From Vulcanimicrobiota bacterium (GTDB lineage Bacteria > Vulcanimicrobiota > Vulcanimicrobiia > Eremiobacterales > Eremiobacteraceae): a DNA stretch of 64,000 nucleotides. The first letter of the stretch is position 1; each line of letters starts with the position of its first letter. Below, piece after piece: positions 4,468 to 29,859 of this stretch. Made by a program: the position numbers and the translations under genes. The stretch covers positions 1 to 64,000 of the forward strand of contig JABCYQ010000010.1 in NCBI GenBank assembly GCA_013290125.1, given 5' to 3'. The notes under the pieces were generated by a model. That model was given only the letters and a program-made list of their open reading frames with translations. It did no database searches and was not told where the DNA came from.

Positions 4468-4482
4468 CGTAACGCCATAAGC

Positions 4483-6571: not shown

Positions 6572-6633
6572 AAAGAGATTGGTGCTCACTTTGCTCACAT
6601 TGATGCGCGCGGCAGAGCCGCGCGGCTTACATC

Positions 6634-9712: not shown

Positions 9713-9713
9713 G

Positions 9714-15523: not shown

Positions 15524-15554
15524 GTGTTATGCATCTTTGCTGCTCGCGCGCCGG

Positions 15555-17705
15555 TCAGTTTTCGAGATCGCCGGTCAGCGGCACGGTTGCCGCCGTCGCC
15601 GCTTCGAGCATGTAGCCAGGGTAGCCGGTCGTGGCCGGAGCGCGATTCATCACGACGCCCAAGATATTCGATGTCGCCGCGAACTGCAAGCGTTGGATCG
15701 CGCGTTTGGCCGAATCGGTGTCGGTCCGGCCGGCGGCTACGACAAGTACGACGCCGTCGGTCTTTGCCGAGAGCGCGGCAGCGTCGATCACCGGCAAGAG
15801 CGCCGGCGTGTCGAATATGACCATCTGGTAGGTCTCGAGCAAGCCCGCCACGATCTCATCGAAGCGCGCCGACTGGATCAGCTTGACCGGATTGGGCGCG
15901 TGAGCGCCGGACGGCATCAGATCGAGGTTCGCGTAGCGCGTCTTCACGATCACGTCTTGCGGCGTGGCATCGCCGATGACGACGTTCGACAGACCGTTGT
16001 GATTGGAGACGCCCAGCCGGTCGTGCAGCACGCCGCGCCGCATGTCGGCGTCGACGAGCAGAACTCGCGGCCGCATCTCAGCCATCGCGATCGCCGTGCT
16101 GAGCGCGACGGTGGATTTACCATCGCCTTCGGTCGGACTTGTGATGGCGAGCGTGCGCAGCGGCTTGTCCGACGAGAAGCGGATGGCCGTCACGAGTTGG
16201 AGATACGCTTCGATCGTCATCGCGCGCAGCTGCGGGAGCCGCGCTTGCATCCTCTTATCGACGGCTTCGAGATCCGGGATGCTCGTCAAGACCGGCGCGG
16301 GAAGGGCACGTGCGACATCGGCTTCGTCCTTGAGCGTGTTGTCGAAGAAGTCTATGACGAAGACGCCGCTGACGCCGAGAAGCAAGCCCAGCACGAGTCC
16401 GATGCCCATCACGAGGATCCACGACGGCTTCACCGATGCGAACTTCGGATTGGCGGGCTCGGAAACCGCGACGTCGGAAAGCGCAAGGGTCTTCGCGACG
16501 AGCGCGTCGTTGTAGTGCTGACGAAGCGACGAGTAGACGCCTTCGGCGAGCTGCGCGTCGCGCTGCAGATTCGCAAGCGTCTGACTGGTGGACGGCAGCT
16601 GCCGGACCTGAGCTTCGTTGTGCTGCTGCTGGCTGCGCAGCGCGATGAGCTGCTGTTCGTCGCCCGCGATCTGCGTGCGCAGGCTAGCGGCTTGCTGGTC
16701 GAGCGTCTGCGCGACCGGATTCGGCACGATCGTGTTCGATGCCACGTACGTGGGCGGCTGCGAAGACAACTCTTTTTGGAGTTGGGATTCTTGCTGTTCG
16801 AGCGCCTGCACAGTGGGGTGAGCTTCTGTATACTGTTTGCGCGCGTAGTCGAGCTGCACGCGGACCTGCGAGAGCTGCTGCTGCAGCTGCGTGACCACCG
16901 GATTCTGCTGCACGGTCGTGCCGCCGACCATCGTGCGCGCGCCTGCATCGAGCTGGCCCATCACGTTGCCGAGAGCGGCTTGCGCCTGCTGCTGATCGAC
17001 TTCCACTTGCGCGATGCGCGTGGCGGTGTCGGTGTACTGACCGACCGTCGCCTGAGTCTGCGCCGTCACGTCGGCGATGGCGTGCGTGTTCTGAAATGCG
17101 TTGAGCGCTGAGTCGGCCTTCGTCATGGTCGCTTGCGCGATCGGGATCTGCGTCGAGAGGTACTGCATCTCCGTGACCGACTGATTGGCGATGAGTCCAC
17201 GCTGCTTGTCGATCAGCACTTTGGCGAATTCATTCGCGATGTTCGCCGACATGTCACGCGTGGACCACGTGCTCTGCAGCGTCACGATCTGCGTGTTCGT
17301 GACGGGCGCGACGTAGATGTGGTACTTGAGCAGATCGTACGCATCGATGTGTTTGAGGCCAAGGTTTTGGATGACTTGCGCCGCCACGCTCTTATCCTGC
17401 AGCAGCGTGGCATAGGTCTCGACCGACTGCACGCCGCCGGCGGCGACGAGCGCGTTGAGTACGGGCAGGTCGGTGTTGACGCCCGTGAAGTTCGTGGACG
17501 AGTTGCCGGTGAGAAGCTCGATCTGCGTGACGTACGATTTCGGAAATAGGAACGCGTACACGAGGCAAATCGCGAAGAACACGCCGAAGATCGCCCAAAA
17601 AGTTCTGTTCCGCCGCTTGAGCGTGGCGAAGATCTTGGTGAAGTCGTTCTCTCGCGACTGGTCCGGCAAGGCCGAGATATGGCCGTTGCTGGGCAATTGA
17701 TACAT
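15555..17705 (-). CDS. Wzc/ExoP-like polysaccharide copolymerase with BY-kinase domain
   Basis: 716 residues. A Wzz-type chain-length domain opens with a membrane helix (about residues 37-55). A long periplasmic Gln-rich coiled-coil region (about 180-420) follows, then a second helix (about 430-455). The cytoplasmic kinase domain carries Walker A TSPTEGDGKST, Walker A' LLVDADMRRG and Walker B-like MVIFDTPALLPVIDA. This is the inner-membrane partner of the Wza-like exporter. The C-terminal tail has only two tyrosines (GYPGYM), fewer than the Tyr-rich cluster of E. coli Wzc, so autophosphorylation may be simpler. The LMW-PTP domain of the 2659-4467 protein is a candidate cognate phosphatase (inference). 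Confidence 0.93.
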   Translation of the reverse strand: MYQLPSNGHISALPDQSRENDFTKIFATLKRRNRTFWAIFGVFFAICLVYAFLFPKSYVTQIELLTGNSSTNFTGVNTDLPVLNALVAAGGVQSVETYATLLQDKSVAAQVIQNLGLKHIDAYDLLKYHIYVAPVTNTQIVTLQSTWSTRDMSANIANEFAKVLIDKQRGLIANQSVTEMQYLSTQIPIAQATMTKADSALNAFQNTHAIADVTAQTQATVGQYTDTATRIAQVEVDQQQAQAALGNVMGQLDAGARTMVGGTTVQQNPVVTQLQQQLSQVRVQLDYARKQYTEAHPTVQALEQQESQLQKELSSQPPTYVASNTIVPNPVAQTLDQQAASLRTQIAGDEQQLIALRSQQQHNEAQVRQLPSTSQTLANLQRDAQLAEGVYSSLRQHYNDALVAKTLALSDVAVSEPANPKFASVKPSWILVMGIGLVLGLLLGVSGVFVIDFFDNTLKDEADVARALPAPVLTSIPDLEAVDKRMQARLPQLRAMTIEAYLQLVTAIRFSSDKPLRTLAITSPTEGDGKSTVALSTAIAMAEMRPRVLLVDADMRRGVLHDRLGVSNHNGLSNVVIGDATPQDVIVKTRYANLDLMPSGAHAPNPVKLIQSARFDEIVAGLLETYQMVIFDTPALLPVIDAAALSAKTDGVVLVVAAGRTDTDSAKRAIQRLQFAATSNILGVVMNRAPATTGYPGYMLEAATAATVPLTGDLEN

Positions 17706-17786
17706 GATCGGTCAGGCCTCTCGTTCGTCAGTGACCGGATTGCGAGGCGTCCGTTTCTTCGGCCGCCTCGCAGTCCGCGTGATTGG

Positions 17787-18629
17787 TTACGGTGTTGGCG
17801 CCCCGGTGCATCCGGATGGTCCGCCCGGGCACGGCGTTGGAACCGCGGGCTCGCTCCCAGTTACGGCGTTGAGATCCGCGTTTATGGTCGGATTCAGCGG
17901 CTGCGACGGATTCCAGAGCGGCGCGGCCGGAAAGAGCGATGTATTGCCTGCGGATTGCGATGCGATGTCGTTCAGCAACGTCGTCTCCGCGAAGTTCGGA
18001 GCTGTGTCGAGGTGCTGCACCCACGTCTGCACGGTGTTGAAGTTCCAGTCGTCGAACGCGGTGTTGCAGCCGGACGGCGGGCACTGTGAAGACCGCTTGT
18101 AGACGTAGAGCGCTGCAGCCGTCGTGAAAACGTCGCTGGTGGCGGCCGAGGAGAGTACGGATCCGCTGTCGCCGAGAGCGAGAGTCGTGGCAGCCCCGTG
18201 GCCCTCGAACATCAGCGTCCAGGTCTGGGGGCCGGCGCCGCTCGGCGGTTCGGCCACGACGACGTAGTTGCGCCCGGCTACCATGACGTACGGCGAGCCG
18301 GCCGGTGTGGGAATGGCCGGCGAGGTGACGCTGAAAGCGCCGCTCGCGTTGGTCACGCTTGTTCCCGCTTCCGGAAAGCAGCCGCACGTGAAGACGATAT
18401 TCTCGGCATTAGCGGGGAGGTATGTGAACCCGGTGCCGAACGTACCGCCGGTGGCCACCTGCATCTCCGTCGCTTGTAGAACCGGCGACGGCACTGGTGC
18501 CACGCTCGGCGATGGTTGCGGACCCGGACCCGGCAGGGTTGAGCCTCCGCCTCCGCCGCAGCCGGCGATCAGCGTTGCGGTCAGCAGCGCTGCGGCGCTG
18601 ACGGCGCCGACGTATTGCATGCTCTTCAT
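17787..18629 (-). CDS. Lipoprotein of unknown function between exporter and copolymerase genes
   Basis: 280 residues with a lipoprotein signal (MKSMQYVGAVSAA...LIAGC, Cys followed by polyglycine) and a short Pro/Ser linker to about residue 50. The middle part (residues 55-165) alternates beta-strand-like segments and contains a CGC motif; it could be an Ig-like or carboxypeptidase-regulatory-like sandwich. Later residues include paired Cys (SSQCPPSGC) and a Pro/Cys-rich tail. No known family recognised. Its place between Wza-like and Wzc-like genes on the same strand, with short gaps, suggests an accessory part of the export machinery or the cell-surface end of it. Confidence 0.7.
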   Translation of the reverse strand: MKSMQYVGAVSAAALLTATLIAGCGGGGGSTLPGPGPQPSPSVAPVPSPVLQATEMQVATGGTFGTGFTYLPANAENIVFTCGCFPEAGTSVTNASGAFSVTSPAIPTPAGSPYVMVAGRNYVVVAEPPSGAGPQTWTLMFEGHGAATTLALGDSGSVLSSAATSDVFTTAAALYVYKRSSQCPPSGCNTAFDDWNFNTVQTWVQHLDTAPNFAETTLLNDIASQSAGNTSLFPAAPLWNPSQPLNPTINADLNAVTGSEPAVPTPCPGGPSGCTGAPTP

Positions 18630-18657
18630 GAACTAATTCGTCTCCTTACTTGTGCGG

Positions 18658-19647
18658 TCAAATGTGCGGGAAAAGATTTCGTAGCCCTAACAGGAGCAGG
18701 TATAAAGGATTCGAGGATCCGTTACCGTTGAGGCCGTGCTTCGACTTGGGAACGTAGACCACGTCGCCTTTTTGCATCGTCATGTCCGCCGACGTCTCGC
18801 CGTTTTGGAGCGCGTTGTACAAGTTGACATTGTACTTCTGCACTTGGCCGGTGGCAGTCGTGCGTGTGACGACGATGTTGTTCAGATCAGAATCCGCAGC
18901 ATCGCTGTTGCCGGCCTTGGCGATAGCCATGGAGAGGCGGTCGCCTTGCGAGATCTCGACCTCACCCGGATGATCCACCGCGCCCGAGACTTCGACGTCG
19001 ATCGTCGCCGGCGACGGGATGTAGACGATAGAACCGTCGGTCACAGGGACGTCTTGCGACGTGTCGCCCAGACCATACAGCTTCTGCAGCGAAACTTCTT
19101 CGAGATGGCCGGCGTAGTCTGTGACCTTCGCCGTGGGATACGCTTGCGCCGTGCCGACGAGCCCGCCGGCCGCTGCAACTGCGTCTGTGAGACGCGCCGA
19201 AGATGTCAGTTGATACTTGCCCGTGTTCTTCACGCCGCCAAGGACGAGCACGTTGATCTCACCCTGCTGCGCGAGGATCACGGTGACCACCGGATTGCGC
19301 ACATACTTCTTCAGCGCCGCGGCGATCGTTTTGCTCGCCGCTTCCGGCGATTCACCGGCGACGTGCACGCGGCCGATCAGCGGATATGAGATGTCGCCCG
19401 ATGGCAGTACCGTGACCGACTGCGAAAGTGTGGAGTCGCCGAAGACTTGCACGTTCAGCTGATCGTTGGCGTGGATGATGTATTCGGACGTCGCCGCGAC
19501 GGGCGCCGGCGCTGGGGCCGGCGTGACCTCGCCGATGGGCGAAGCCTGGGCGATCGCGGTCGTCCCGCAGATCATTGCGGCGGCGAGCCCGAGCGCGGTC
19601 GAGATACCTGCAGATTTCCAGACGAACATACTCACGAGATTCCTCAT
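18658..19647 (-). CDS. Wza-type outer-membrane polysaccharide export protein
   Basis: 329 residues from ATG 19647; an ATG at 19629 is also possible. A signal sequence (to about residue 35, ending TTAIAQAS) precedes a Pro/Ala spacer. The Poly_export domain follows (about 52-135: YIIHANDQLNVQVFGDSTL, LPSGDISYPLIGRVHVAG), then two SLBB-like domains (about 140-205 and 222-300, the second with VEVSGAVDHPGEVEIS). The tail (LLLLGLRNLFPHI) is hydrophobic and could be the C-terminal amphipathic helix that forms the outer-membrane pore in Wza. No lipobox Cys is visible, unlike E. coli Wza. It would pair with the Wzc-like protein at 15555-17705. Confidence 0.92.
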   Translation of the reverse strand: MRNLVSMFVWKSAGISTALGLAAAMICGTTAIAQASPIGEVTPAPAPAPVAATSEYIIHANDQLNVQVFGDSTLSQSVTVLPSGDISYPLIGRVHVAGESPEAASKTIAAALKKYVRNPVVTVILAQQGEINVLVLGGVKNTGKYQLTSSARLTDAVAAAGGLVGTAQAYPTAKVTDYAGHLEEVSLQKLYGLGDTSQDVPVTDGSIVYIPSPATIDVEVSGAVDHPGEVEISQGDRLSMAIAKAGNSDAADSDLNNIVVTRTTATGQVQKYNVNLYNALQNGETSADMTMQKGDVVYVPKSKHGLNGNGSSNPLYLLLLGLRNLFPHI

Positions 19648-19680: not shown

Positions 19681-20151
19681 TTACTTGTGCTTGTGCCCAT
19701 TGTGGTCGCGCGCTCCGTACTCGGCGGCCAAAAGCCGCCCCCCAAGGTTTGGGTCTACCCATGCCTGGCCGAGCGCAAGCGAGCGAAGCGCCGCCCCCAG
19801 CACTTCAACGGATGAGGCTGTGCTTACCGCACACGAGCAGCCTGCGTTGAGCGCATTTTGCACGAGACCGGGCTGTCCGCCCCCGACGAGTGCGCATATC
19901 GGGACACCCGGCAGCGACTTTGCGAGCCACGAAACGGTGTGGAGCGGGTCGTTGATCTGCGCTTCGAAGCCGACGATGATCGCGCCGACCTCTTTGCGCC
20001 GAAGCTCGTCCGGCGCGAGATCGGTCTGCTGATACGAGCCCACGACCTCGGCGATTCCGGATTCCTCCAGCAGCCCGGCGAAAGCTTCGCGGACTATATT
20101 CTGGTCATCGACCAGAGCGATTTTCATCGGCTTAACGCTTGAAAGTGCCAT
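19681..20151 (-). CDS. Degenerate stand-alone receiver-domain protein
   Basis: 156 residues with a response-regulator receiver fold and no output domain. The acidic pair is present (KIALVDDQN), but the strand that normally ends in the phospho-accepting Asp reads GAIIVGFEAQ, with Gly where Asp is expected. The Thr/Ser of strand 4 and the Lys of strand 5 are also missing (CALVGGG, CAVSTASS). It resembles NarL-type receivers that lost the HTH. A pseudo-receiver that binds partners without phosphorylation is the likely reading. It sits between the dehydrogenase and exporter genes of the polysaccharide cluster, so a role in controlling that cluster is possible. Start uncertain: an ATG at 20127 is also in frame. 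Confidence 0.75.
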   Translation of the reverse strand: MALSSVKPMKIALVDDQNIVREAFAGLLEESGIAEVVGSYQQTDLAPDELRRKEVGAIIVGFEAQINDPLHTVSWLAKSLPGVPICALVGGGQPGLVQNALNAGCSCAVSTASSVEVLGAALRSLALGQAWVDPNLGGRLLAAEYGARDHNGHKHK

Positions 20152-20226: not shown

Positions 20227-21519
20227 TCATAAGGCCGCATGTTGGTACGTAGGTCCTAACGCGCGAGCGGCGCGCTTGCCGAGTGCCGCCACGAGAAATC
20301 CGGCGCGCCGCCACTTTTCGGCATCGAAGAAGTTGCGCGCATCGACGAGCACGCGGCCCCGCATCAGCGCGCCGACGCGCTCCGGTTCGATCGTGGCGAA
20401 TATCGCGTGGTTGACGACGAGCACGATTGCCTCGGCGTCCTGCGCGGCCGATTCGAGATCCGGACAGAGTCCGTGCTTGAATCCGCGCGCGATCGGATCG
20501 TAGACGGCGACTTCGTAGCCGTGTTCTTCGAATAGGGCCACGAGCCGTTCGGTTGGACTTTCGCGCGAATCGTCGACGTCGGCTTTGTAGGAAGCGCCGA
20601 GCAACGCGATCTTGCGCCGTTCGCCGCTCGGCACATGGTCGCGCACGAGACGCACGATGTGATTCGGCATGCGCGCGTTGACCCGTCGAGCCGTCTGGAT
20701 CAGTTCTGTCGTGAACGGATGTGCGTCCGCAAGAAACTGGGGATCGATGGGGATGCAGTGACCGCCGACGCCGGGACCGGGGCTGAGGATGTTGACGCGC
20801 GGGTGTTCGTTGGCAAGCCGGATGACTTCCCACGCGTCCACACCGAGCTCTTCGCAAAGCACGGCAAGTTCGTTCGCGAGCGCGATGTTGACATCGCGAA
20901 AAGTGTTCTCGACGACTTTGACGAGCTCGGCCGTCGTGGCGTCGGTCTCGAAGAGTCCGCCGGTGACGAACGATGCGTACAGCGCGCGCGCGCGCTTCGC
21001 GTCTTGCGGTCTTCGTCCGCCGATGATCCGCGAATTCTCCCGGAGTTCGCGCACGATTGCGCCGGGAATCACGCGCTCCGGACAATGCGCTAAGGCGACG
21101 CTGTCGGGATCGATGCCGGCCGCGCGCAACGCCGGCACGAATATTCGCTCGAGCGTTCCCGGCGGCACGGTCGATTCGAGCACGATCAATTCGCCGCCGC
21201 GCAGACGCGCCGCGATCGCTTTGGCGGCCGCTTGCACGTAACTCAGATCGGGGCGGCCGTCGCTGGCGTTCGGCGTGGGCACACAGACGAGATACGCATC
21301 GGCCGGCGTGACGTCATCGACGATGCGGAGTTTGCCCGTCGCCAGCGCTTGCGCAACGAGCGTTCGCACTTCAAGTTCGGCGATGTGGCCCGCGCCGGCG
21401 CGCAACCTCGCACGCACGTCTGCGCTCACGTCGTAGCCGTTCACCTCGTGACCGGCTAGCGCGAGCATCGAGCCCGTGGGCAATCCGATATAACCAAGTC
21501 CAAGGATGGTGACGGTCAT
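20227..21519 (-). CDS. UDP-N-acetylhexosamine (ManNAc-type) dehydrogenase, WecC-like, canonical active site
   Basis: 430 residues. A complete nucleotide-sugar dehydrogenase: N-terminal TILGLGYIGLPTG, VPTPNASDGRPDLS, ESTVPPGT, then CPERVIPG with Glu148, KVVENTFRDVNIALANE with the catalytic Lys/Asn, and GPGVGGHCIPIDP with nucleophile Cys255. The C-terminal UDP-binding domain has LGASYKADVDDSRESP. The family oxidises the C6 alcohol of UDP-HexNAc to a uronic acid with two NAD+. WecC/WbpA-type substrates (UDP-ManNAc or UDP-GlcNAc) are most likely from overall length and motif style. It is the first gene of the minus-strand polysaccharide run and the intact counterpart of the altered paralogue at 12187-13530. 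Confidence 0.92.
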   Translation of the reverse strand: MTVTILGLGYIGLPTGSMLALAGHEVNGYDVSADVRARLRAGAGHIAELEVRTLVAQALATGKLRIVDDVTPADAYLVCVPTPNASDGRPDLSYVQAAAKAIAARLRGGELIVLESTVPPGTLERIFVPALRAAGIDPDSVALAHCPERVIPGAIVRELRENSRIIGGRRPQDAKRARALYASFVTGGLFETDATTAELVKVVENTFRDVNIALANELAVLCEELGVDAWEVIRLANEHPRVNILSPGPGVGGHCIPIDPQFLADAHPFTTELIQTARRVNARMPNHIVRLVRDHVPSGERRKIALLGASYKADVDDSRESPTERLVALFEEHGYEVAVYDPIARGFKHGLCPDLESAAQDAEAIVLVVNHAIFATIEPERVGALMRGRVLVDARNFFDAEKWRRAGFLVAALGKRAARALGPTYQHAAL

Positions 21520-21638: not shown

Positions 21639-22655
21639 CTAATGTGGCGTAGCGGGTGAGTCTTTCGGCCTAATGGCGCGCTTCGGCAGCACAAATTCAG
21701 CCGAGACCAGCGGTACCGGATCCAAGCCGTAGATACGGTCCAAGTCGAACCACTTGAGGATTTCGAGCGCTCGGTTCGCCTGCGCGTCTGAGACGATCGA
21801 CTTCCAGCCGTCTGTCCGGGAACCGCCTTGTTTGATCCCCGCGGCGGATTCCCACGCCATTGACGACGGGCGTGCGACGTGCGCGAAGACCGCGTCGCTG
21901 AGCGGCCGATGCAAGAACTCGAAGAGCCGCGACACTTCGCTGCGCGGGTCGCTTCTGAAGGCCTCGTAGAACGCTATGTGGATCTCGCCTGCGCAGAACT
22001 GGCGCAGCGGAACGGCGTTCTCGATGCACCAGCGCGCGACGTGCGCTTCGAACGGATCTGAGATGGCCGCCAATCGATCTCGCAGCGGAGAAAGATAGTC
22101 GGCGACGAGTTCGTCTTGGCCGAGGAATTCTCGCATGTCGTATCCCCAACGGTAGCGCACGCGCGAAGCCGCCACCGCGCACGGATGGCGAAGCATCAAG
22201 ACTATCGGCATCCCCGGCGACAACTCGAACAGCCAGCGAAGGAATAGACCCGCCCGGATATCTTTGATCAGGCGCTGCTTACTGATCAGCCGGCGGTTGT
22301 AGAAATCCGTCCAGCCGCTGCGCACTTTTCCCGAGACGATCGCTTGCGCGGGCCCGACGAACTGCGCACGTGCATCGCCCGGGCGAATATATTGGCGATT
22401 GGAGAACGCGCGGCACATCGGAACGTGGAGCGCGTTGAACGGCTCGAAGATGAAACGATAGGCGTTATCGTGATTGATGATCTCGGCGATCCACGTGGTA
22501 CCGCCGCGCCCGCTGCCGGCTAAGAAAACGGTGTCGCGTTGATCGCCGCCGAGATCGAGATGCGCCTGCGCCGCCAGACCCCGCATCGCGCGCACGGCAC
22601 CGTGCACGGCCTCACGAGGAAATCGCGAGCGAAAGGAAGCATTGTTCGCCCGCAC
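21639..22655 (-). CDS. PAPS-dependent sulfotransferase 1
   Basis: 338 residues from a GTG at 22655. The 5'-phosphosulfate loop FLAGSGRGGTTW lies near residues 44-55 and the 3'-phosphate motif MLRHPCAVAASR near 160. Both are typical of Sulfotransfer-family enzymes that move sulfate from PAPS to a hydroxyl or amine. EPFNALHVP, WCIENAVPLRQF and HIAFYEAF are shared with three paralogues in this window. No membrane segment or signal is visible, so it should act in the cytoplasm on a nucleotide-linked or lipid-linked glycan, or another small acceptor. The start codon abuts the ATG of the divergent GT2 gene with no gap; an internal ATG at 22586 would restore a gap. Confidence 0.88.
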   Translation of the reverse strand: MRANNASFRSRFPREAVHGAVRAMRGLAAQAHLDLGGDQRDTVFLAGSGRGGTTWIAEIINHDNAYRFIFEPFNALHVPMCRAFSNRQYIRPGDARAQFVGPAQAIVSGKVRSGWTDFYNRRLISKQRLIKDIRAGLFLRWLFELSPGMPIVLMLRHPCAVAASRVRYRWGYDMREFLGQDELVADYLSPLRDRLAAISDPFEAHVARWCIENAVPLRQFCAGEIHIAFYEAFRSDPRSEVSRLFEFLHRPLSDAVFAHVARPSSMAWESAAGIKQGGSRTDGWKSIVSDAQANRALEILKWFDLDRIYGLDPVPLVSAEFVLPKRAIRPKDSPATPH

Positions 22656-23696
22656 ATGGCCTCCGCCTTAGGATCGCCGGCCGGACCCGACGTCGCTCTT
22701 CCATTCGATGCGCGTGTCACGCGCATCGGTCTCGTCATGCCCTTCTACAATGAGGCGCCAAACCTTGCCCAAACGCTGACGAGCATCGCGGCGCAGACCA
22801 TCGATCATCGGCGTTTGTATTTCGTCGGCGTGGATGGCGATTCGTCGGATGACGGCCGGGACATGATCGAACACTGGCTTTCGCGCGGCGACATCGCGGG
22901 TTGCGTCGTGAGCAATCCGCGCCGGCGCATTCCGATCTCGCTCAACGCCGGCATATGCGCGTTGACCGCCGCCGATTTGATCGTGCGCCTCGACGCGCAC
23001 ACCACATACGGGCCGACGTACATCGAAGACGTCGTCTCCGCTTTTGCGGACGGGCCGCCGGATCTGGGTTGCGTCGGCGGCCTGCAACTGCCGGACGACG
23101 GCAGTTCGTTTTCGACGCAGCTATCGGGCGCATTGCTCACGCATCCGTTCGGCGTGGCCCGTCTCGGCGTCAAGTCGTTGACGAAACCGCAGTACACCGA
23201 CACGATGTATCTCGGCGCGTGGCGGCCGGGCCTGTTGCAGCGCCTCGGCGGTTTCGACGAGAATTGGATCGCGAACGAAGATTCTGAACTCGAGTCGCGG
23301 TTGCGCGCGGCCGGCTGGCGCATGCTGCTCATACCGGTCGCAAACCGCTATCGCGTGACGCGCGGTGCGCGAAGCACGGTGCGCCAGTGGGCGGGCTACG
23401 GATTTTGGCGAGCCCAGACGATCCGCCGGTATCCGCGGGAATGGCGCTGGCGACACGCCATCGTCATCGCGGGTTTGATCGTGCTCGTGGCCGGGTTGAT
23501 CTCGCCGTGGCGCTTGTTCTTGCTCCCTGCGTATCTCTTGTATGCGCTCGGCGTGCTCGTGTTCGGCCGCGGTCACGCGCCGTTCTTGGTGAATCTGTGC
23601 GCGTGTGTCGTGTTTCCGGTCGTGCACATCGCGTACGCGTTCAACTTCCTGCGCGGCCTCATCGTGCGGCCGGCGGCATTCAAACCGGCGCTCTGA
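22656..23696 (+). CDS. Membrane-associated family 2 glycosyltransferase (ExoA-like)
   Basis: 346 residues from ATG 22656. GT-A domain: IGLVMPFYNEAPNL, DGDSSDDGRDM, the metal-binding region IVRLDAHTTYG, YLGAWRPGLLQRLGGFDENW and NEDSELESRLR. At least three C-terminal hydrophobic helices (about residues 265-335) anchor it in the inner membrane. Similar ExoA-type enzymes extend lipid-linked exopolysaccharide repeats. It is the only plus-strand gene within the sulfotransferase group, overlapping sulfotransferase 2 by 17 bases at its 3' end, which suggests it was inserted or inverted among them. Confidence 0.9.
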   Translation: MASALGSPAGPDVALPFDARVTRIGLVMPFYNEAPNLAQTLTSIAAQTIDHRRLYFVGVDGDSSDDGRDMIEHWLSRGDIAGCVVSNPRRRIPISLNAGICALTAADLIVRLDAHTTYGPTYIEDVVSAFADGPPDLGCVGGLQLPDDGSSFSTQLSGALLTHPFGVARLGVKSLTKPQYTDTMYLGAWRPGLLQRLGGFDENWIANEDSELESRLRAAGWRMLLIPVANRYRVTRGARSTVRQWAGYGFWRAQTIRRYPREWRWRHAIVIAGLIVLVAGLISPWRLFLLPAYLLYALGVLVFGRGHAPFLVNLCACVVFPVVHIAYAFNFLRGLIVRPAAFKPAL

Positions 23697-24705
23697 CCGC
23701 TCCGACCGCTCCAGCCGCGCGCCCGGAGAACGTCGCTTCGGCGCCCGCTATGTCCGGCATGGACGATCGTCCGTACAGCTTCTCCAAGCCGAACGATTCG
23801 ATGATTGAGTAGGCGCGCTCCACGTCCTCCGGCGCCACGTGTTTGCGCCACGATTCGGTGAGGCTTTCGCCGCTGAAGATCGCGCTCGGGCGCGGGCGAC
23901 CCGCTGCGTGTGCTTGGACTGACGGCGTCTTCAGGCTGGCGAGCACGCGGTCGTCGAACGGCCTGCCCAAGAACGTGAACAGCCGCTCCAGTTCTTTGTT
24001 GGGATCGACGCAGAAGTTCTCGTAGAACGCGAGATGGATGTCGCCGCGCGCGAAAGTTCGGAAGGGCACGTAGTTCTCGACGCACCAATCGAAGACGTGC
24101 CGTTCGAAATCGCTGCGCGCGGCGCGGATCGCTTCGGCGAACGGAGCGAGATGGTCGGCGATCAGATCTGGCTGCGTCAGATAGTCTTCCCTGATGTCTT
24201 CCCAGCCGAGCTGCGTGCGCGAGCTTGCGACCGCGCACGGATGCCGCAGCAGCAAGACGATCGGCATGCCGGGGAAGTGCGCTCGCACCCAACCGAGCAT
24301 GAGCATGGTTCGCACGTCTTTGGCGATACGATTGTTATAGATGCCGGGCTTGTTGAGTCCGTCCACCCACGCATCGCGGATCGCGCCGGTGAAGATCTCG
24401 GTCGCCGGGCCCAAGAAGGTCTTGTCGTCTGAGTCTGGGCGCAGATACTGTCGGCGCGCAAACGCTTGCACCGCGGGCACGTTGCCGCGATGGAATGGCT
24501 CGATCATGACCCGGTAGTGTTGATCGAAGTTCGCGACGCCGACGACCCACGTCGTGCCGCTGCGACCCGAACCCGTCAGCAGCACGGTGCGGCTTGGATC
24601 GCGATTCAAGTCGAGATAGAACCCGTGGCCGATGACGGAAAGCCGCCGCCGGAATCTCTCTCCGAATGTGGACGGCCGCCGCCTCAGAGGTGTATTGTTA
24701 TTCAC
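23680..24705 (-). CDS. PAPS-dependent sulfotransferase 2
   Basis: 341 residues from a GTG at 24705. It has the PAPS loop LLTGSGRSGTTW near residue 42-53 and the 3'-phosphate motif LLRHPCAVASSR near 155. EPFHRGNVP, SESLTESWRKHV and a C-terminal FGLEKLYG motif match the paralogues. The C-terminus ends in an Ala/Gly/Val-rich tail. It is convergent with the GT2 gene and overlaps its last 17 bases. Acceptor unknown; probably a different position or sugar than its paralogues. The basic N-terminus (RRRPSTFGERFRRR) may bind membrane or nucleic phosphate, but no signal peptide is present. Confidence 0.88.
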   Translation of the reverse strand: MNNNTPLRRRPSTFGERFRRRLSVIGHGFYLDLNRDPSRTVLLTGSGRSGTTWVVGVANFDQHYRVMIEPFHRGNVPAVQAFARRQYLRPDSDDKTFLGPATEIFTGAIRDAWVDGLNKPGIYNNRIAKDVRTMLMLGWVRAHFPGMPIVLLLRHPCAVASSRTQLGWEDIREDYLTQPDLIADHLAPFAEAIRAARSDFERHVFDWCVENYVPFRTFARGDIHLAFYENFCVDPNKELERLFTFLGRPFDDRVLASLKTPSVQAHAAGRPRPSAIFSGESLTESWRKHVAPEDVERAYSIIESFGLEKLYGRSSMPDIAGAEATFSGRAAGAVGAVRAPV

Positions 24706-24753
24706 TAGGGATGGTATCGGAAAAATCTCCGCCGGACCTTTACAATGCCGAAG

Positions 24754-24787
24754 GGGCCGACTTTATGTCGGCCCACATTTTTTTCAA
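24754..24787 (+). repeat. TTTAT-loop hairpin with T-tract
   Basis: GGGCCGAC-TTTAT-GTCGGCCC (24754-24774) is followed by ACATTTTTTTC, so it could act as a plus-strand terminator. The surrounding gap 24706-25041 (336 bases) otherwise holds GC-rich sequence with no gene. Confidence 0.75.
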
Positions 24788-24941
24788 CCTCAACCGGCCG
24801 CAACGGCGATGTCGAAAGCCGGGGCGTCTGGGGCGGCGAGAGCCGCCGAAGTCGAGCGGCGGAGTTAAACTATCCCGATTTTCCGCCGCGTCCCCGGCGC
24901 AGACATCGCCGGATGATGCCGTTGGGTTGGCGATCGGGAGT

Positions 24942-25019
24942 GGGCCGACATAAAGTCGGCCCCTTCAGATGGTCGGCCTCTTCAGATGGTCGGCCCCTTC
25001 AGGAAGCCGGCCCTTCAGG
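24942..25019. repeat. ATAAA-loop hairpin followed by tandem half-palindromes
   Basis: GGGCCGAC-ATAAA-GTCGGCCC (24942-24962) is followed by three imperfect copies of an about 18-base unit (CTTCAGATGGTCGGCC type), ending just before the stop of sulfotransferase 3. A very similar tandem expansion is at 35882-35953. Confidence 0.85.
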
Positions 25020-25041
25020 AAAATCGCAGAAGCGCGATATC

Positions 25042-26031
25042 CTATTTCGCGAGGATCGCGCGCGCGGCGTCCGTATCGGGCATCGGATCGTCGTTGTAGA
25101 TCCGATCCAATCCGAAAAGCCCGAGGATGCGGAGCGCGCGACGGACCTGCGCCGGTGTGATCTCGTCGCGCCATTGCGTCAAAGGGTCACGATGCATCGA
25201 TATCGCGCTCTTGCGCCGGCGCACTTGGCTGGACGGGATCGAGAGCTCGCCGAGCGCGCGCGGATCGTAATCGCGTCCGATGTGGTTGAAGAGCATCGCG
25301 ATCTCGCGATCCGGGTCATCGACAAAACCCTCGTAAAAGGCTAAGTGGATCTCACCCGCTGCGAACTGCCGCAGCGGCACGATCGTCTCGACGCACCAGC
25401 GAAACATCTGCTGCTCGAAGGGATCGATGGTACCCGCCATCTCCTGTGCCACGCCGCCCAAATGATCTTCGACCAGGTCATGGTTGGAGAGGTAAGCGTC
25501 CGTGAGCGGCTGCCAGTGAAGGCTCAAGCGCGAGGCGACGGTCGCTAGCGGATGCCGCAGCAGCAGCACGACCGGCATCCCCGGAAAGTTTACGCTCAGC
25601 CACTTCAGGAAGAGGTTGGCGCGGATATCTTTGACCAGTCTGTCCTTGGAAAGCCACGTCTTGTTGTAGCGATCGACCCAGCCGGCTCGGATTTTTCCGC
25701 CAAGCACGCTGCGCGCGACCGACAAACGCTCCTCATCGCGCGCGTCCGGCCGCAAGTACGTCAGGGATCCGAACGCTTTGCAGCGCCGCACTTTATCGGA
25801 GTGGAACGGCTCGAACATGTAGCGGTACCGGTGGTCGAAGTTGATGATCTCCGACACCCACGTGGTGCCGCTGCGTCCGCTCCCCGCGAGCAGCACGGTC
25901 GATCGATGATCGCCGCCGGCGTCTATAAAAAAGCGGTGGCTCGCGGATGCGAATTGCACGCCGAGCAGGCGCGCGCCCGTGCGCGCCTCGCGCAGCAGAT
26001 GATGTGCGGTCTGCAACAGTACGTGGGTCAT
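25042..26031 (-). CDS. PAPS-dependent sulfotransferase 3
   Basis: 329 residues from ATG 26031, which overlaps the stop of sulfotransferase 4 (ATGA); an ATG at 26070 would add 13 residues but lose this coupling. The PAPS loop LLAGSGRSGTTW is near residue 46-57 and the 3'-phosphate motif LLRHPLATVASR near 160. EPFHSDKVRRCKAF, WCVETIVPLRQF and HLAFYEGF match the other copies. The overlap with the upstream copy shows the two are co-translated, consistent with a recent tandem duplication or selection for stoichiometric expression. Substrate unknown. Confidence 0.88.
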   Translation of the reverse strand: MTHVLLQTAHHLLREARTGARLLGVQFASASHRFFIDAGGDHRSTVLLAGSGRSGTTWVSEIINFDHRYRYMFEPFHSDKVRRCKAFGSLTYLRPDARDEERLSVARSVLGGKIRAGWVDRYNKTWLSKDRLVKDIRANLFLKWLSVNFPGMPVVLLLRHPLATVASRLSLHWQPLTDAYLSNHDLVEDHLGGVAQEMAGTIDPFEQQMFRWCVETIVPLRQFAAGEIHLAFYEGFVDDPDREIAMLFNHIGRDYDPRALGELSIPSSQVRRRKSAISMHRDPLTQWRDEITPAQVRRALRILGLFGLDRIYNDDPMPDTDAARAILAK

Positions 26032-26945
26032 GCGTGCGTGGCCTCGTGCGCGCTCGGCTTGGGAGCCCACGGATCGAGCCGCTTCGGCATCGCATCCTCG
26101 CCGTAGAAAACATCGAGTCCGAACAGCGCGAGTATCTCGATTGCGCGTTCGATTTGATGGGGCAGTATCTGCGCCCGCCAGTTCTCCACGAGATCGTGAC
26201 GGCGAATCGCTTGGGTCTCGTCGCGGCTGAGCAGCGCCGGCCGGCGCAATTGATTGAAGATCGCGCGCGTGTACGGCCGCTCGAGATAGTGGAAGAGCCG
26301 GTCGATCTCAAATTTCGGCCGCTCGCAGAAGTTCTCGTAGAAGGCGATGTGAACATCGCCCGGCGCGAGCTGGCGCAGCGGCACATAGTTCTCGATGCAC
26401 CACAAGAAAAGTTGCCGCTCGAATTCGGTTCGCGCTCTCATGATCTCGCCGCGCAGCGGCCCGATGTGATCGTCGAGCAGCGCTTCTTGGCTCAAGAGTT
26501 CATCGAGGTGGTCCTTCCAACCCAACCGCATGCGCGAGTTCGCGTCAGCTATCGGATGGCGCAGGAGCCAGATGATCCGTGTCTTCGGGAACTGATTGCG
26601 CAGCCATTTGAGCATGAGGTTTGCGCGGATCTCGGGGATCACGCGCCGTCGGCTGATCAAGCGGCGATTGTAACGGTCGACCCATGGATTATGGATCGCG
26701 CCGCTGAGTACCAAGCGAGCAGGCAGCACGAACGAAGGATCGGTGTCGTCGGGCCGCATGTACTGGCGATAGCGGAAGTTGCTGATCTCTTGTGTTCTGT
26801 ATGGTTGGAACGGTTCGAAGAGATAGCGATATTCGTTCGCGTAATTGATGATGTTCGACACCCAGGCCGTGCCGCTGCGACCCGTGCCCGCAACGAGCAC
26901 AGCAGTGGATGGATCGGAATCGAGGTCGATGATCGGCCGGCTCAC
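26028..26945 (-). CDS. PAPS-dependent sulfotransferase 4
   Basis: 305 residues from a GTG at 26945. It is the shortest and most divergent of the four: its N-terminus begins only a dozen residues before the PAPS loop (VLVAGTGRSGTAW), and Ala replaces the second Thr of GTTW. The 3'-phosphate motif is LLRHPIADANSR. EPFQPYRTQ, WCIENYVPLRQL and HIAFYENF keep the family pattern. It diverges from sat (27154) across a gap of 208 bases (26946-27153), which must hold the promoters of both the sulfotransferase pair and the PAPS-synthesis genes. I see no clear consensus there. Confidence 0.85.
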   Translation of the reverse strand: MSRPIIDLDSDPSTAVLVAGTGRSGTAWVSNIINYANEYRYLFEPFQPYRTQEISNFRYRQYMRPDDTDPSFVLPARLVLSGAIHNPWVDRYNRRLISRRRVIPEIRANLMLKWLRNQFPKTRIIWLLRHPIADANSRMRLGWKDHLDELLSQEALLDDHIGPLRGEIMRARTEFERQLFLWCIENYVPLRQLAPGDVHIAFYENFCERPKFEIDRLFHYLERPYTRAIFNQLRRPALLSRDETQAIRRHDLVENWRAQILPHQIERAIEILALFGLDVFYGEDAMPKRLDPWAPKPSAHEATHA

Positions 26946-27153
26946 GAAAGAAACCAGGCGTCACAGACGTGCCTGACGGACCTCATATAGATTGCTTGGC
27001 TTAAAACGGCGTCGAAAACCTTTCGCGCACACGTAATCCGTGCTCGATTGACGCGCGCGTGCCACTGATACGGCATGCAGGCCTAGGGAAGCCACGGCAA
27101 TTCGTGGAAAAAGCAGTTGGGTCAGTACGGCCCGTGCACGTTTGGAGGCATCC

Positions 27154-28326
27154 TTGTCCAATTCAAAGGCAACGCTCGTAGAGCCTTATGGTGGAACGCT
27201 TGTCGACCGGGTGGCTAAGCCCGGTGCGGCGCTCAAACTAGCCGCGGACGCGGCGACAGCGCCGAAGATCGCGCTTTCCGAGAGGTCGCTGTGCGACGTC
27301 ATATGCATCGCGACGGGCGCATACTCGCCGCTCGAAGGCTTCATGGGTTCGGCCGACTACGCGTCCGTCGTCGACACCATGCGGCTATCGAACGGCCTGG
27401 TCTGGCCGATCCCTATCGTGCTTCCGATCGAAGAGTCGCTTGCCAAACGCCTCAAAGCGGGCGACATCGCTGCACTCGTCGACGCCTCGTTCAACATGGT
27501 CGCCGCGATCGAGATCTCCGAGATTTACCACGCCGACCACGCGCGCGAGACCAGTAAAGTTTACGGCACATCCGATCACGAGCATCCGGGTGTCGCAGCG
27601 GTGCTTGACGCGCCGCCGCACTACTGCGCGGGCAAGATCACGCTGATCTCAATGCCCAAGCCCGACTATCCCGAACACTCCCTCACACCGGCGCAGACGC
27701 GCGCCAAATTCGCCGAACTCGGCTGGCGCACGGTTGTGGGGTTCCAGACGCGCAACCCCGTGCATCGCGCGCACGAATACTTGCAGAAAGTCGCGCTCGA
27801 AAGCGTCGACGGCCTTCTACTTCATCCGCTCGTCGGCAAGACCAAGGGCGACGATGTTCCCGCCGACGTCCGCATGCAGTGCTACAAGGTGCTGCTCGAA
27901 AAATATTATCCGCTCGGGCGCACGGTGCTCGGCGTATTTCCGGCTGCCATGCGGTACGCCGGTCCGCGCGAAGCAGTTCTGCACGCGATCGCGCGCAAGA
28001 ACTACGGCGTGAGCCACTTCATCGTCGGCCGCGATCACGCGGGTGTCGGGACTTACTACGGCACGTTCGACGCACAGCGGATCTTCGACGACATCGAAGG
28101 TGAGCTCGGTATCACGATCATGCGCTTCGAGCACTCATTCTGGTGCAACGTCTGCGAAGGCATGGCGACCACGAAAACGTGCCCGCACAAGCCTGAAGAC
28201 CGCGTGGCGCTCTCGGGCACGAAAGTGCGCGACATGCTGCGTTCCGGTCAACGGCCGCCGCAGGAGTTTTCGCGACCCGAGGTGGCGGATGTGCTGATCG
28301 CCGCAATGGCCGGGACGAGCGCCTAA
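27154..28326 (+). CDS. sat: Sulfate adenylyltransferase (ATP sulfurylase)
   Basis: 390 residues. I place the start at TTG 27154 because GGAGG (27144-27148) sits five bases upstream; a TTG at 27142 would overlap that Shine-Dalgarno. The enzyme makes adenosine 5'-phosphosulfate and pyrophosphate from ATP and sulfate. The catalytic motif QTRNPVHRAHEYL, the GRDHAGVGTYYG loop and the Cys-rich CNVCEGMATTKTC segment of the single-subunit Sat type are all present. Paired with cysC (28469) it supplies PAPS, and no sulfite-producing reductase genes are nearby. The local need is therefore more likely sulfotransfer than cysteine synthesis (inference). Confidence 0.95.
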   Translation: MSNSKATLVEPYGGTLVDRVAKPGAALKLAADAATAPKIALSERSLCDVICIATGAYSPLEGFMGSADYASVVDTMRLSNGLVWPIPIVLPIEESLAKRLKAGDIAALVDASFNMVAAIEISEIYHADHARETSKVYGTSDHEHPGVAAVLDAPPHYCAGKITLISMPKPDYPEHSLTPAQTRAKFAELGWRTVVGFQTRNPVHRAHEYLQKVALESVDGLLLHPLVGKTKGDDVPADVRMQCYKVLLEKYYPLGRTVLGVFPAAMRYAGPREAVLHAIARKNYGVSHFIVGRDHAGVGTYYGTFDAQRIFDDIEGELGITIMRFEHSFWCNVCEGMATTKTCPHKPEDRVALSGTKVRDMLRSGQRPPQEFSRPEVADVLIAAMAGTSA

Positions 28327-28335
28327 GAGCGCCGC

Positions 28336-28359
28336 AGGTCCCACCGCTTTTTGGGACCT
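28336..28359 (+). other. Hairpin in the sat-cysC gap
   Basis: AGGTCCCA and TGGGACCT form an 8-bp stem with an 8-base loop ten bases after the sat stop. There is no T-tract, so it may be a processing or partial-termination signal rather than a terminator. The rest of the 142-base gap shows only the Shine-Dalgarno-like AAGGAG near 28452. Confidence 0.4.
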
Positions 28360-28468
28360 CTCACCCAAGCAATTGCGCTTTGTGGCGCAGAGGCCGCGAG
28401 CCGGAGCATCCGAACAATAGTCATAGAGTTCCTCAGCATCCGCACGCCTTCAAGGAGCATCGCACATC

Positions 28469-29035
28469 TTGTCCACCAATAAGGGTTTCATCATCTGGTT
28501 CACCGGGCTCTCGGGCTCGGGTAAGACCACCATCGCGCGCATCCTCGAAAAACGCGTCCAGGCGGCCGGCCGGCACCTCGAGTCGCTCGACGGCGACGTC
28601 GTGCGCACGCACCTTTCCAAGGGCCTCGGCTTCTCGAAGGAAGATCGCGACACCAATATCCGCCGCATCGGCTACGTCGGCCATCTTCTGCAGCGCAACG
28701 GCGTCGGCGTCGTGTGCTCTGCCATCTCACCGTATCGCGCGACGCGCGACGAATTGCGCGAGATGGTCGGCGCGGACTTCATCGAGGTCTATGCCGACTG
28801 CCCGCTCGAGATCTGCGCCACGCGCGACGGCAAAGTCGAGATGTACGCCAAGGCCATGCGCGGTGAGATCAAAGAGTTCACCGGCGTCTCCGATCCCTAC
28901 GAAGCTCCGGAGAAGCCCGAGCTGCACCTCCACACTCACCAAGAGACGCCCGAAGAAAGCGCCGATCGCGTGATGCGCTATCTCGTCGAGCATGGCTACG
29001 TCGCGCCCGTCGCGGTGGTTGCTGCCGCTCGATGA
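28469..29035 (+). CDS. cysC: Adenylylsulfate (APS) kinase
   Basis: 188 residues from a TTG at 28469 (AAGGAG upstream). It phosphorylates APS at the 3' position to give PAPS. Walker A is GLSGSGKTT (about 13-21); SLDGDVVRTHL, RRIGYVGHL and the APS-kinase signature SAISPYRATR follow, then FIEVYADCPLEIC. Length is normal for a stand-alone CysC. Downstream, its TGA overlaps the ATG of the PHP phosphoesterase, so PAPS production and the next step are translationally coupled. Confidence 0.95.
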   Translation: MSTNKGFIIWFTGLSGSGKTTIARILEKRVQAAGRHLESLDGDVVRTHLSKGLGFSKEDRDTNIRRIGYVGHLLQRNGVGVVCSAISPYRATRDELREMVGADFIEVYADCPLEICATRDGKVEMYAKAMRGEIKEFTGVSDPYEAPEKPELHLHTHQETPEESADRVMRYLVEHGYVAPVAVVAAAR

Positions 29036-29859
29036 GCGACGCCTTCATCGATCTCCAACTGCACACGAACTGCTCCGACGGCATCTGGCCGCCGGAGCGG
29101 CTTTTCGCTGAGGTCCGCGCCAAAAAGCTCGAGCGTTTTTCGGTGACCGATCACGATACGATCGGCGCCTATCCCGTGCCTGCGGATCTCGCCGCGTCGT
29201 GCGTTCCCGGGCTCGAGGTGGACACCGAGCACGACGGACACACCGTGCATCTGCTTGCCTACGGCATCACCGATCCGTCGTGCCCGCTCTTGCTCTCGCT
29301 GAACAAGCAGCGCGAGGAGCGCGTCGCCCGCATGAAGGCGATCATCGAGCGGATGCGCGGGCTTGGTGTTGACGTCTCGTACGATGACGTGCGCGCGCAA
29401 GTGGTGGGCGCTGGTTCAGTCGGGCGTCCGCATCTGGCGCGGGCGCTCGTGGCCAAGGGCATCGTGTCCAACACGCAAGAAGCGTTCGACAAGTATCTCG
29501 CCGACGGCGAAAAGGGCTTTGTCAAACTGAAGCGTCTCACGTCGGCGGATATCATCGCGCTGGTACGCCAGTCCGGCGGCATCGTCGTCATCGCGCATCC
29601 GAAGCGATTGCGCGAAGAGCATCACCTCGCCGAGATCGCGGATCTAGGCGTGGACGGCGTCGAAGTGGTGCATCCGTCCGCGGATGAAGAATACCAGAAG
29701 ATGCTCTACGCGTTCGCGGATTCGCGAGGACTGCTCACGACCGGCGGCACGGATTTCCATGCTCCCGAAACGCATCCGCTCCCTGGCGTCATGTTCCCGC
29801 GCGAGCGGCTACGGCCGTTTCTCGATCGCGTCGATCGTTGCCTGAGCGGCGCCGCCTAA
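29032..29859 (+). CDS. PHP-domain phosphoesterase (TrpH/YciV type), probable 3',5'-nucleotide (PAP) phosphatase
   Basis: 275 residues from an ATG overlapping the cysC stop. PHP metal-binding motifs are complete: DLQLHTNCSDG (HxH), VTDHDT, the GLEVDTEHDG segment, VIAHPKR and GGTDFHAP. The TrpH/YciV branch includes enzymes shown to remove the 3'-phosphate from 3',5'-bisphosphonucleotides (and RNase AM). PAP, the 3',5'-bisphosphate left after every sulfotransfer, inhibits sulfotransferases and must be cleared. The operon position after sat and cysC therefore supports PAP phosphatase activity here (inference). A general 5'-exonuclease role is the alternative. Confidence 0.85.
   Translation: MSDAFIDLQLHTNCSDGIWPPERLFAEVRAKKLERFSVTDHDTIGAYPVPADLAASCVPGLEVDTEHDGHTVHLLAYGITDPSCPLLLSLNKQREERVARMKAIIERMRGLGVDVSYDDVRAQVVGAGSVGRPHLARALVAKGIVSNTQEAFDKYLADGEKGFVKLKRLTSADIIALVRQSGGIVVIAHPKRLREEHHLAEIADLGVDGVEVVHPSADEEYQKMLYAFADSRGLLTTGGTDFHAPETHPLPGVMFPRERLRPFLDRVDRCLSGAA

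Follow-up and report, generated by a model that had tools for sequence, protein, structure and literature searches.

A putative sulfation module within a Wzx/Wzy-type polysaccharide locus of an uncultivated Eremiobacterota bacterium

Four sulfotransferase genes (ST1 to ST4) in the genome of an uncultivated Candidatus Eremiobacterota bacterium (assembly 95% complete) are divergent from sat, cysC, and a gene for a PHP-family phosphoesterase, and a Wza/Wzc/Wzy polysaccharide cluster adjoins them within the 64-kb stretch of DNA analyzed here (hereafter, the window). What do these enzymes sulfate, and does the locus make its own sulfate donor? The original prediction held that this unit sulfates a surface polysaccharide with PAPS of its own making, and all seven of the genes it named are present where it placed them. 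The sulfotransferases lie on the reverse strand: ST1 (21639..22655; PF00685, 7e-9; PF13469, 3e-8), with a true start perhaps at 22586; ST2 (23680..24705; PF13469, 8e-12); ST3 (25042..26070; PF13469, 5e-9), with a likely start at the ATG at 26031, in a 4-nt overlap (ATGA) with the ST4 stop; and ST4 (26028..26945; PF00685, 3e-7). In the profile search that the prediction had proposed, all four pass the Pfam gathering scores (Sulfotransfer_3 and Sulfotransfer_1). ST1 and ST2 are separated by a gene absent from that prediction, which encodes a GT2 family glycosyltransferase (~22656..23696, forward strand; PF00535, 3e-15) with C-terminal membrane helices, seen as hydrophobic segments; it stays beside ST1 in three related genomes (G002, G004, and G011).

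The neighboring genes, all on the reverse strand, bear out the predicted setting, with Wza, Wzc, Wzy, and CapD at 9714-19647. Nearest to ST1 is a nucleotide-sugar dehydrogenase (UDP-ManNAc dehydrogenase-like; 20227..21519; TIGR03026, 394 bits, over cut-off; PRK11064, 364 bits, under cut-off), followed by a receiver-domain-like protein (19681..20151; PF00072, 28 bits, just under cut-off) that is kept within the cluster in G001, G002, G004, and G011. Next come a Wza-type outer-membrane polysaccharide export protein (OPX; 18658..19647; Poly_export PF02563, 3e-24, and SLBB), a secreted lipoprotein-like protein with an N-terminal hydrophobic segment and no Pfam family (17787..18629; syntenic in five genomes), a Wzc-type polysaccharide co-polymerase with a tyrosine-kinase-like domain (15555..17705; PF02706, PF13807, and PF13614, i.e., Wzz/GNVR/AAA_31), and a CapD/FlaA1-type nucleotide-sugar dehydratase/epimerase (13517..15523; PF02719, 7e-113). 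The remainder comprises a second nucleotide-sugar dehydrogenase (12187..13593; PF03721, PF00984, and PF03720), a weakly matched GT4-like glycosyltransferase (11231..12475; PF13692, 22.5 bits, under cut-off), a protein of the Wzy-type polymerase/O-antigen ligase family with ~10 hydrophobic segments (9714..11270; PF04932, 9e-16), a DegT/DnrJ sugar aminotransferase (8546..9901; PF01041, 5e-112), and two paralogous secreted lipoprotein-like proteins with N-terminal hydrophobic segments (5303-6598 and 6881-8287; syntenic in G001), in which a faint glycoside-hydrolase-like signal (GHL15, E 0.12) is not significant. Pfam scans of the flanking genes found no NRPS or PKS; a small secondary metabolite as acceptor was rejected on this ground and because the flanking genes have polysaccharide functions.

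The locus does not end with the window. Contig C4 shares a 146-bp end overlap (145 identical) with the left end of the window, and a single 443-aa GT4 frame spans the join, its 5' part (1..853, reverse strand) crossing the contig end into C4. Beyond this gene, profile families identify three more sulfotransferases (ST5-7), a sugar-phosphate transferase (Bac_transf), and Wzx; in the sister genome G001, one contig carries the sulfotransferases, Bac_transf, Wzx, and the rest of the locus. Judged from the assembled sequence, the true locus is larger than the window and, once C4 is joined, places seven sulfotransferases within one Wzx/Wzy locus, out of eight of the ST1-4 family in the genome. The Wzx/Wzy set is then complete, with Wzy, Wzc, Wza, and glycosyltransferases in the window and Bac_transf and Wzx on C4. 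An additional sulfotransferase, on contig C29, adjoins an ABC exporter. The G+C content of the window (~0.58-0.67) has no sharp step at the sulfation module, and a horizontal island by composition was rejected for that reason.

A gene-neighborhood comparison, also proposed with the original prediction, covered the source genome (G000), its congeners G001 and G002, a second genus (G004 and G011), and other relatives. Each of ST1-4 has a 1:1 ortholog across the three species of the first genus, and ST1 and ST4 have orthologs in G004 and G011 as well (orthology was taken from a quick tree). The polysaccharide genes, the sulfotransferases, and sat-cysC-PHP occur together in all three species and in the second genus, where ST1 and ST4 are the linked sulfotransferases; in G001, G002, G004, and G011, the sulfotransferases and sat-cysC-PHP sit at the same end of the locus. 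The prediction had named relatives with sulfotransferases and without sat or cysC as evidence against itself. APS kinase is present in every sulfotransferase-bearing relative, which upholds the pairing of donor and transferase; the tight linkage is not universal among the sequenced relatives, because in three genera with related sulfotransferases (G008, G009, and G010) sat-cysC lies on a different contig. The nearest neighbors of distant sulfotransferase homologs are mostly glycosyltransferases, with the Wzy and Wzx families included.

We consider it highly probable, from gene content and context, that the module serves to sulfate the surface polysaccharide of a Wzx/Wzy-type locus, with PAPS apparently made for this purpose; the conserved synteny, the APS kinase in sulfotransferase-bearing relatives, and the neighbors of the homologs all support this central claim of the prediction. 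Sat would convert sulfate and ATP to APS, and CysC would convert APS to PAPS. The sulfotransferases have no hydrophobic segment, and we infer that they are cytosolic and act during repeat-unit build-up: all seven (four in the window and three on C4) would transfer the sulfuryl group to sugar hydroxyl or amino groups inside the cell, on a lipid-carrier-bound repeat unit under construction. The PHP enzyme would hydrolyze PAP to AMP, and the sulfated unit would be flipped by Wzx, polymerized by Wzy, and carried out via Wzc and Wza.

NodH and Stf0 are known to sulfate a lipo-oligosaccharide or glycolipid, and the acceptor here could likewise be a glycolipid, hopanoid, or other lipid in place of an exported polymer. 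NodH, which sulfates a glycolipid, is also a PF13469 match (PMC11625862), cytosolic sulfotransferases would meet a lipid-linked sugar in any case, and the C29 sulfotransferase adjoins an ABC exporter. However, the conserved neighbors are Wza, Wzc, Wzy, Wzx, and nucleotide-sugar enzymes, with lipid genes not among them; the nearest neighbors of the distant homologs include polymer-assembly families; and seven sulfotransferases are many for a single lipid head. We therefore regard a lipid acceptor as unlikely.

If a polysaccharide is the acceptor, the number of transferases requires comment. ST2-4 are 41-43% identical to ST1, and all four share the P-loop G-x-G-R-[SG]-G-T, the 3' motif RHPxAxxxSR, and the residues R50, E71, R156, and S164; in 74 aligned family members, R50, R156, and E71 are invariant and S164 occurs in 73. 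From its position between the 5'-PSB and 3'-PB motifs, E71 is the presumed catalytic base. The prediction of four paralogs with intact PAPS loops is accordingly upheld by the Pfam scores, the P-loop, and the 3' motif in four of four, with a reservation for ST4: its P-loop reads GTGRSGTAW, and it has Pro at the position of a near-invariant Lys (Lys in 70/74 family members). The Lys is lost in all three species of the genus, and ST4 may be altered or inactive. This loss, together with a frame-broken sulfotransferase copy in G004 and G011, could suggest that the four genes arose by recent, redundant duplication or are in decay, and have no site specificity. Yet ST1-4 are old paralogs with open frames and separate orthologs in three species, and we consider redundancy quite unlikely. 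Such old, separately kept paralogs are consistent with the proposal that each position or sugar has its own sulfotransferase, in which case each would act at a distinct site.

The donor genes, on the forward strand, comprise a homomeric-type ATP sulfurylase (sat; 27142..28326; PF01747, 2e-99; NF003166, 537 bits, cut-off 387) and an APS kinase (cysC; 28469..29035; PF01583, 4e-60; NF002059, 258, cut-off 244). Sat, CysC, and a PAP phosphatase are also used in sulfate assimilation, and the trio could be an ordinary cysteine operon that lies beside the sulfotransferases by chance; indeed, f2 genomes have an APS kinase and a PHP relative beside PAPS reductase. Profile searches, on which the absences reported here rest, found no match in the genome to PAPS/APS reductase (PF01507, PAPS_reduct; matched in 14/14 control genomes) or to assimilatory sulfite reductase (NIR_SIR), the latter a weaker sign as CysH-bearing f2 genomes are mostly without NIR_SIR too. 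No PAPS reductase scores over the cut-off in any sulfotransferase-bearing relative, and at 95% completeness a gene could be missed in one genome but is not likely to be missed in eight. With one sat, one cysC, and no match to either reductase, the genome appears to use its donor pathway for sulfation and not for cysteine synthesis; the gene order with the sulfotransferases is also kept across two genera, and chance adjacency of an assimilation operon was rejected as very unlikely. Full-length APS kinase matches occur in 8/8 sulfotransferase-bearing family members vs. 2/6 without them (Fisher p 0.015, uncorrected for kinship); on the other side, genome G007 encodes both Sat and APS kinase but no sulfotransferase of this kind. 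For sulfate uptake, no SulP importer was found in the genome; a CysT/CysW-type pair is located at contig C1, and sulfate ABC permease pairs score over the cut-off in G000, G001, G002, and G004.

The third gene of the trio (29032..29859, forward strand) has an ATGA overlap with cysC and encodes a PHP-family phosphoesterase, a probable 3'-phosphoadenosine-5'-phosphate (PAP) phosphatase. Its best match is the 3',5'-nucleoside bisphosphate phosphatase model NF041577, at 152.8 bits, below the equivalog cut-off of 400, and it scores nearly as well for RNase RNM/AM. It shares the fold (model vs. 2YB1, TM 0.83) and metal-site residue type of the CV1693/2YB1 3',5'-nucleotide bisphosphate phosphatase and of RNase AM, at 28-29% identity, and its metal ligands (D7, H11, D16, D40, E62, H73, H189, D241, and H243) are invariant. 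Copies 68-97% identical adjoin sat-cysC in five relatives, and such close copies occur only together with sat-cysC. PAP removal by this protein is further supported because three genomes of another family carry relatives 52-55% identical to it next to PAPS reductase. By-product removal, raised in the prediction as a possibility, is now better supported, and the protein probably hydrolyzes PAP to AMP. Against this role, besides the low NF041577 score, counts a separate gene (G000:C4:136029) for an inositol-phosphatase family protein of SuhB/CysQ type.

RaxST sulfates a protein tyrosine with PAPS from RaxP/RaxQ. The AF2 model of ST1 (pLDDT 91) has the PAPS sulfotransferase fold, and its best Foldseek matches in the PDB are tyrosylprotein and SULT sulfotransferases, all distant, so that this fold search names no acceptor; the modeled fold alone does not say sugar, because the closest matches are protein-tyrosine and small-molecule sulfotransferases. 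A review groups TPSTs with NST and HS3ST (PMC11625862). RaxST-like sulfation of protein tyrosines would accord with these top matches, but the TM is only ~0.5, heparan sulfotransferases use the same base type (Glu), no candidate substrate peptide was seen, and the neighbors are polysaccharide genes, which leaves this the least credible of the alternatives, at a very remote chance.

Within the bacteria, sulfated polysaccharides were long regarded as almost exclusive to cyanobacteria, and proof exists for only a few other cases; the present locus points to a further, predicted case in a phylum without cultivated members. We hold tentatively, at a little short of an even chance, that the product could be a glycosaminoglycan-like, very densely sulfated polymer with seven site-specific sulfotransferases, in a phylum without reported sulfated polymers, with the PHP enzyme in place of CysQ and sulfate activated only for the polymer because assimilatory sulfate reduction is absent. 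In a genome that makes PAPS but has no reductive pathway, the connection of donor to polymer can be tested directly, and so compact a set (from donor synthesis through seven transferases and by-product removal to export) would be useful for studying how sulfotransferases choose sites and for making sulfated polymers.

The prediction had called the locus unusual, which must be toned down, since capsule loci with PAPS synthesis and sulfotransferases are already published from Cobetia and Vibrio. Like the present locus, that of Cobetia marina KMM 1449 combines PAPS synthesis, a PAP phosphatase, and a sulfotransferase; its sulfated polymer was shown chemically (PMC11766843). The Cobetia locus has CysD/CysN-CysC, CysQ, a sulfate permease, and ABC (Kps) export, in contrast to Sat with a separate CysC, a PHP-type phosphatase, Wzx/Wzy export, seven sulfotransferases, and a permease elsewhere. 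In Vibrio sp. KMM 8419, a large polysaccharide locus with ABC export holds three sulfotransferase genes and a second cysC/N/D set, a combination of PAPS genes and sulfotransferases that its authors call a hallmark (PMC11641403); here, the genome has no second copy of the PAPS genes and no PAPS reductase match. The synechan xss cluster of Synechocystis 6803 is likewise a Wzx/Wzy locus with sulfotransferases, two in number, for a polymer with two sulfates per ~eight sugars, and the available part of that account names no PAPS-synthesis gene in the cluster (PMC8205485). The Actinoplanes missouriensis wps-1 cluster is also of Wzx/Wzy type with two sulfotransferases, of other families; in the portion of the study available, AMIS_7390, a sulfate adenylyltransferase/APS kinase-family gene examined with wps-1, is needed for sporangia, no by-product enzyme is reported, and sulfation is not yet shown (PMC13390465). 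Set beside these systems, what is new here is the combination of Sat-type donor synthesis, a PHP-type candidate by-product enzyme, seven sulfotransferases, and a donor pathway with no apparent assimilatory use, in a new phylum.

The seven genes named in the original prediction, encoding four paralogous PAPS-type sulfotransferases (ST1–ST4), ATP sulfurylase (sat), APS kinase (cysC), and a PHP phosphoesterase, were all found where it had placed them; ST1–ST4 each score above the curated Pfam sulfotransferase scores, and sat and cysC above the curated NCBIfam scores. The locus extends beyond the window. In the 2.9 Mb assembly (95% complete), the reverse complement of a second contig, C4 (L159:1-146), overlaps window positions 1–146 over 146 bp, 145 of which are identical with one mismatch, and it is therefore very likely, on sequence grounds, that C4 and the window's contig, C10, are contiguous in the genome. 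A single glycosyltransferase frame of 443 residues spans the join. C4 contributes three further sulfotransferases, more GT4 enzymes, a Bac_transf initiating sugar-phosphate transferase, and a Wzx-type flippase, and in the congener G001 the counterparts of the C4 and window genes occur on a single contig in identical order. Given this join and the arrangement in G001, the predicted sulfation module is part of a Wzx/Wzy locus that is nearly complete and carries seven sulfotransferases. Two multi-pass proteins on C4, a few kb apart (L159:9489-10841 and L159:14013-15323), each align with the one Wzx region present in G001, and one may be a duplicate. An eighth, divergent sulfotransferase lies separately on contig C29 (L160:6187-7065), adjoining an ABC exporter and a GT4 enzyme, and may serve a different product.

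ST2–ST4 are 41–43% identical to ST1. All 74 aligned family members share R50 (in the P-loop), E71, and R156, and 73 share S164; R156 and S164 stand at the distance usual for a 3'-phosphate site. The catalytic base is likely E71, since it is placed between the two PAPS motifs; a Glu holds the corresponding base position in heparan and tyrosine sulfotransferases (PMC11625862). The best structural matches of the predicted ST1 model, which is confident (pLDDT 91), are PAPS sulfotransferases throughout, namely tyrosylprotein and SULT enzymes at TM 0.4–0.5, and the fold thus does not name the acceptor. ST4 (26031-26945) is atypical: its P-loop reads GTGRSGTAW, and a residue conserved as Lys in 70 of the 74 members is replaced by Pro. 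This substitution is common to all three species of the genus (window 26031-26945; L144:13334-14257; L147:1-873), the ortholog of the second genus (L148:11712-12614) retains Lys, and ST4 of the window's genus may be altered or non-catalytic.

Both divergent arms look like operons, because cysC and the PHP gene overlap as ATGA and the ATG of ST3 probably overlaps the ST4 stop in the same manner. A GT2 glycosyltransferase gene missing from the original list lies between ST1 and ST2, a position conserved in relatives. Between a GT4 gene and lipoprotein genes, window 1022-5232 (+) encodes a GINT1_N-like protein, an ATP-grasp plus LMW phosphatase protein, and a methyltransferase, and has no nucleotide match in the G001 segments compared. 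A paralogous pair of secreted lipoprotein-like proteins (5303-6598 and 6881-8287), without significant Pfam match, is retained in the polysaccharide locus of relatives; these are perhaps polymer-processing enzymes.

Among the 61 genomes of the class searched, the sulfotransferase family is confined to the window's family, where 8 of 14 members carry it. In two congeners (G001, G002) and two members of a second genus (G004, G011), the sulfotransferases are grouped with GT2, nucleotide-sugar dehydrogenases, Wza, Wzc, and CapD, with sat-cysC-PHP at the same end of the cluster, which spans a contig break in G002 and has its Wzy/DegT part on a separate contig (L054) in G011. In three further family members (G008, G009, G010), sulfotransferases and sat-cysC lie on different contigs, and the linkage is thus restricted to some genera. 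In a quick maximum-likelihood tree, ST1–ST4 have one ortholog each per species in the window's genus, from which the paralogs are judged old and separately maintained, which is compatible with distinct acceptor sites; the second genus has orthologs of ST1 and ST4. One sulfotransferase match is in two pieces in that genus (L149:15978-17000 = G004:C16:263977-265017; G011:C178:3659-4702). The split has the look of a frame break common to both genomes, of local divergence, or of an artefact of sequencing.

Profile searches of the window's genome found a single Sat and a single APS kinase and no PAPS_reduct match, while the same family matches in 14 of 14 control genomes; no sulfotransferase-bearing relative has PAPS_reduct over cut-off. 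An assimilatory sulfite reductase (NIR_SIR profile) is likewise absent from this genome, a weaker test as many PAPS-reductase genomes also have no profile match. APS kinase occurs in 8/8 sulfotransferase-bearing family members versus 2/6 others when full-length matches are counted (Fisher p 0.015, without correction for kinship). This genome, G001, G002, and G004 each have a pair of sulfate ABC permease genes above the curated cut-off; five more family members were searched and had no such pair. The donor pathway appears to be used for sulfation only, without assimilatory use of PAPS. APS kinase genes in the class's other large family mostly lie near one for PAPS reductase; this family's genomes with both mostly have no NIR_SIR match, and their sulfite reductase may come from another protein family.

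The PHP protein is closest to 3E0F, 2YB1, and RNase AM in both sequence and fold, and retains the PHP metal-site residues. It scores below the curated equivalog cut-off and so falls outside that equivalog. Copies 68–97% identical are found only next to sat-cysC within the window's family; in another family, relatives 52–55% identical adjoin PAPS reductase in three genomes (G033:C7:65862-66656, G057:C9:82917-83705, G028:C4:138161-138931). PAP is produced in both settings. 2YB1 is a 3',5'-nucleotide bisphosphate phosphatase according to a title cited by PMC9410882. The PHP protein is probably a PAP phosphatase and, since its relatives adjoin PAPS reductase, such enzymes may replace CysQ in the phylum.

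No signal or membrane segment was seen in the sulfotransferases, which would therefore encounter PAPS as well as the acceptor in the cytosol; we infer that the acceptor is most likely a lipid-linked repeat unit ahead of the Wzx step. Glycosyltransferases are frequent among the 102 proteins encoded closest to distant sulfotransferase homologs from many phyla, and Wzy and Wzx families are represented there too. A sat-like gene lies within a few kb of such homologs in KSB1 (L028), Lokiarchaeota (L067, with CapD and DegT genes nearby), and Desulfuromonadaceae (L019).

A literature search for Eremiobacterota and sulfotransferase returned one paper, in which each is mentioned once. The locus would work like several known systems. 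In Cobetia marina, chemistry shows the capsule polymer to be sulfated, and its locus holds cysN/C, cysD, cysQ, a sulfate permease, and one sulfotransferase (PMC11766843), and Vibrio KMM 8419 has cysC/N/D with three sulfotransferases (PMC11641403). The synechan system has two sulfotransferases, and its polymer two sulfates per ∼eight sugars (PMC8205485); if this ratio of one sulfate per sulfotransferase applies, each repeat here is predicted to carry several sulfates. The Eremiobacterota locus differs from all three in its Sat type and PHP-type phosphatase, in joining donor synthesis to Wzx/Wzy export, and in its seven sulfotransferases, its apparent use of PAPS without assimilation, and its phylum.
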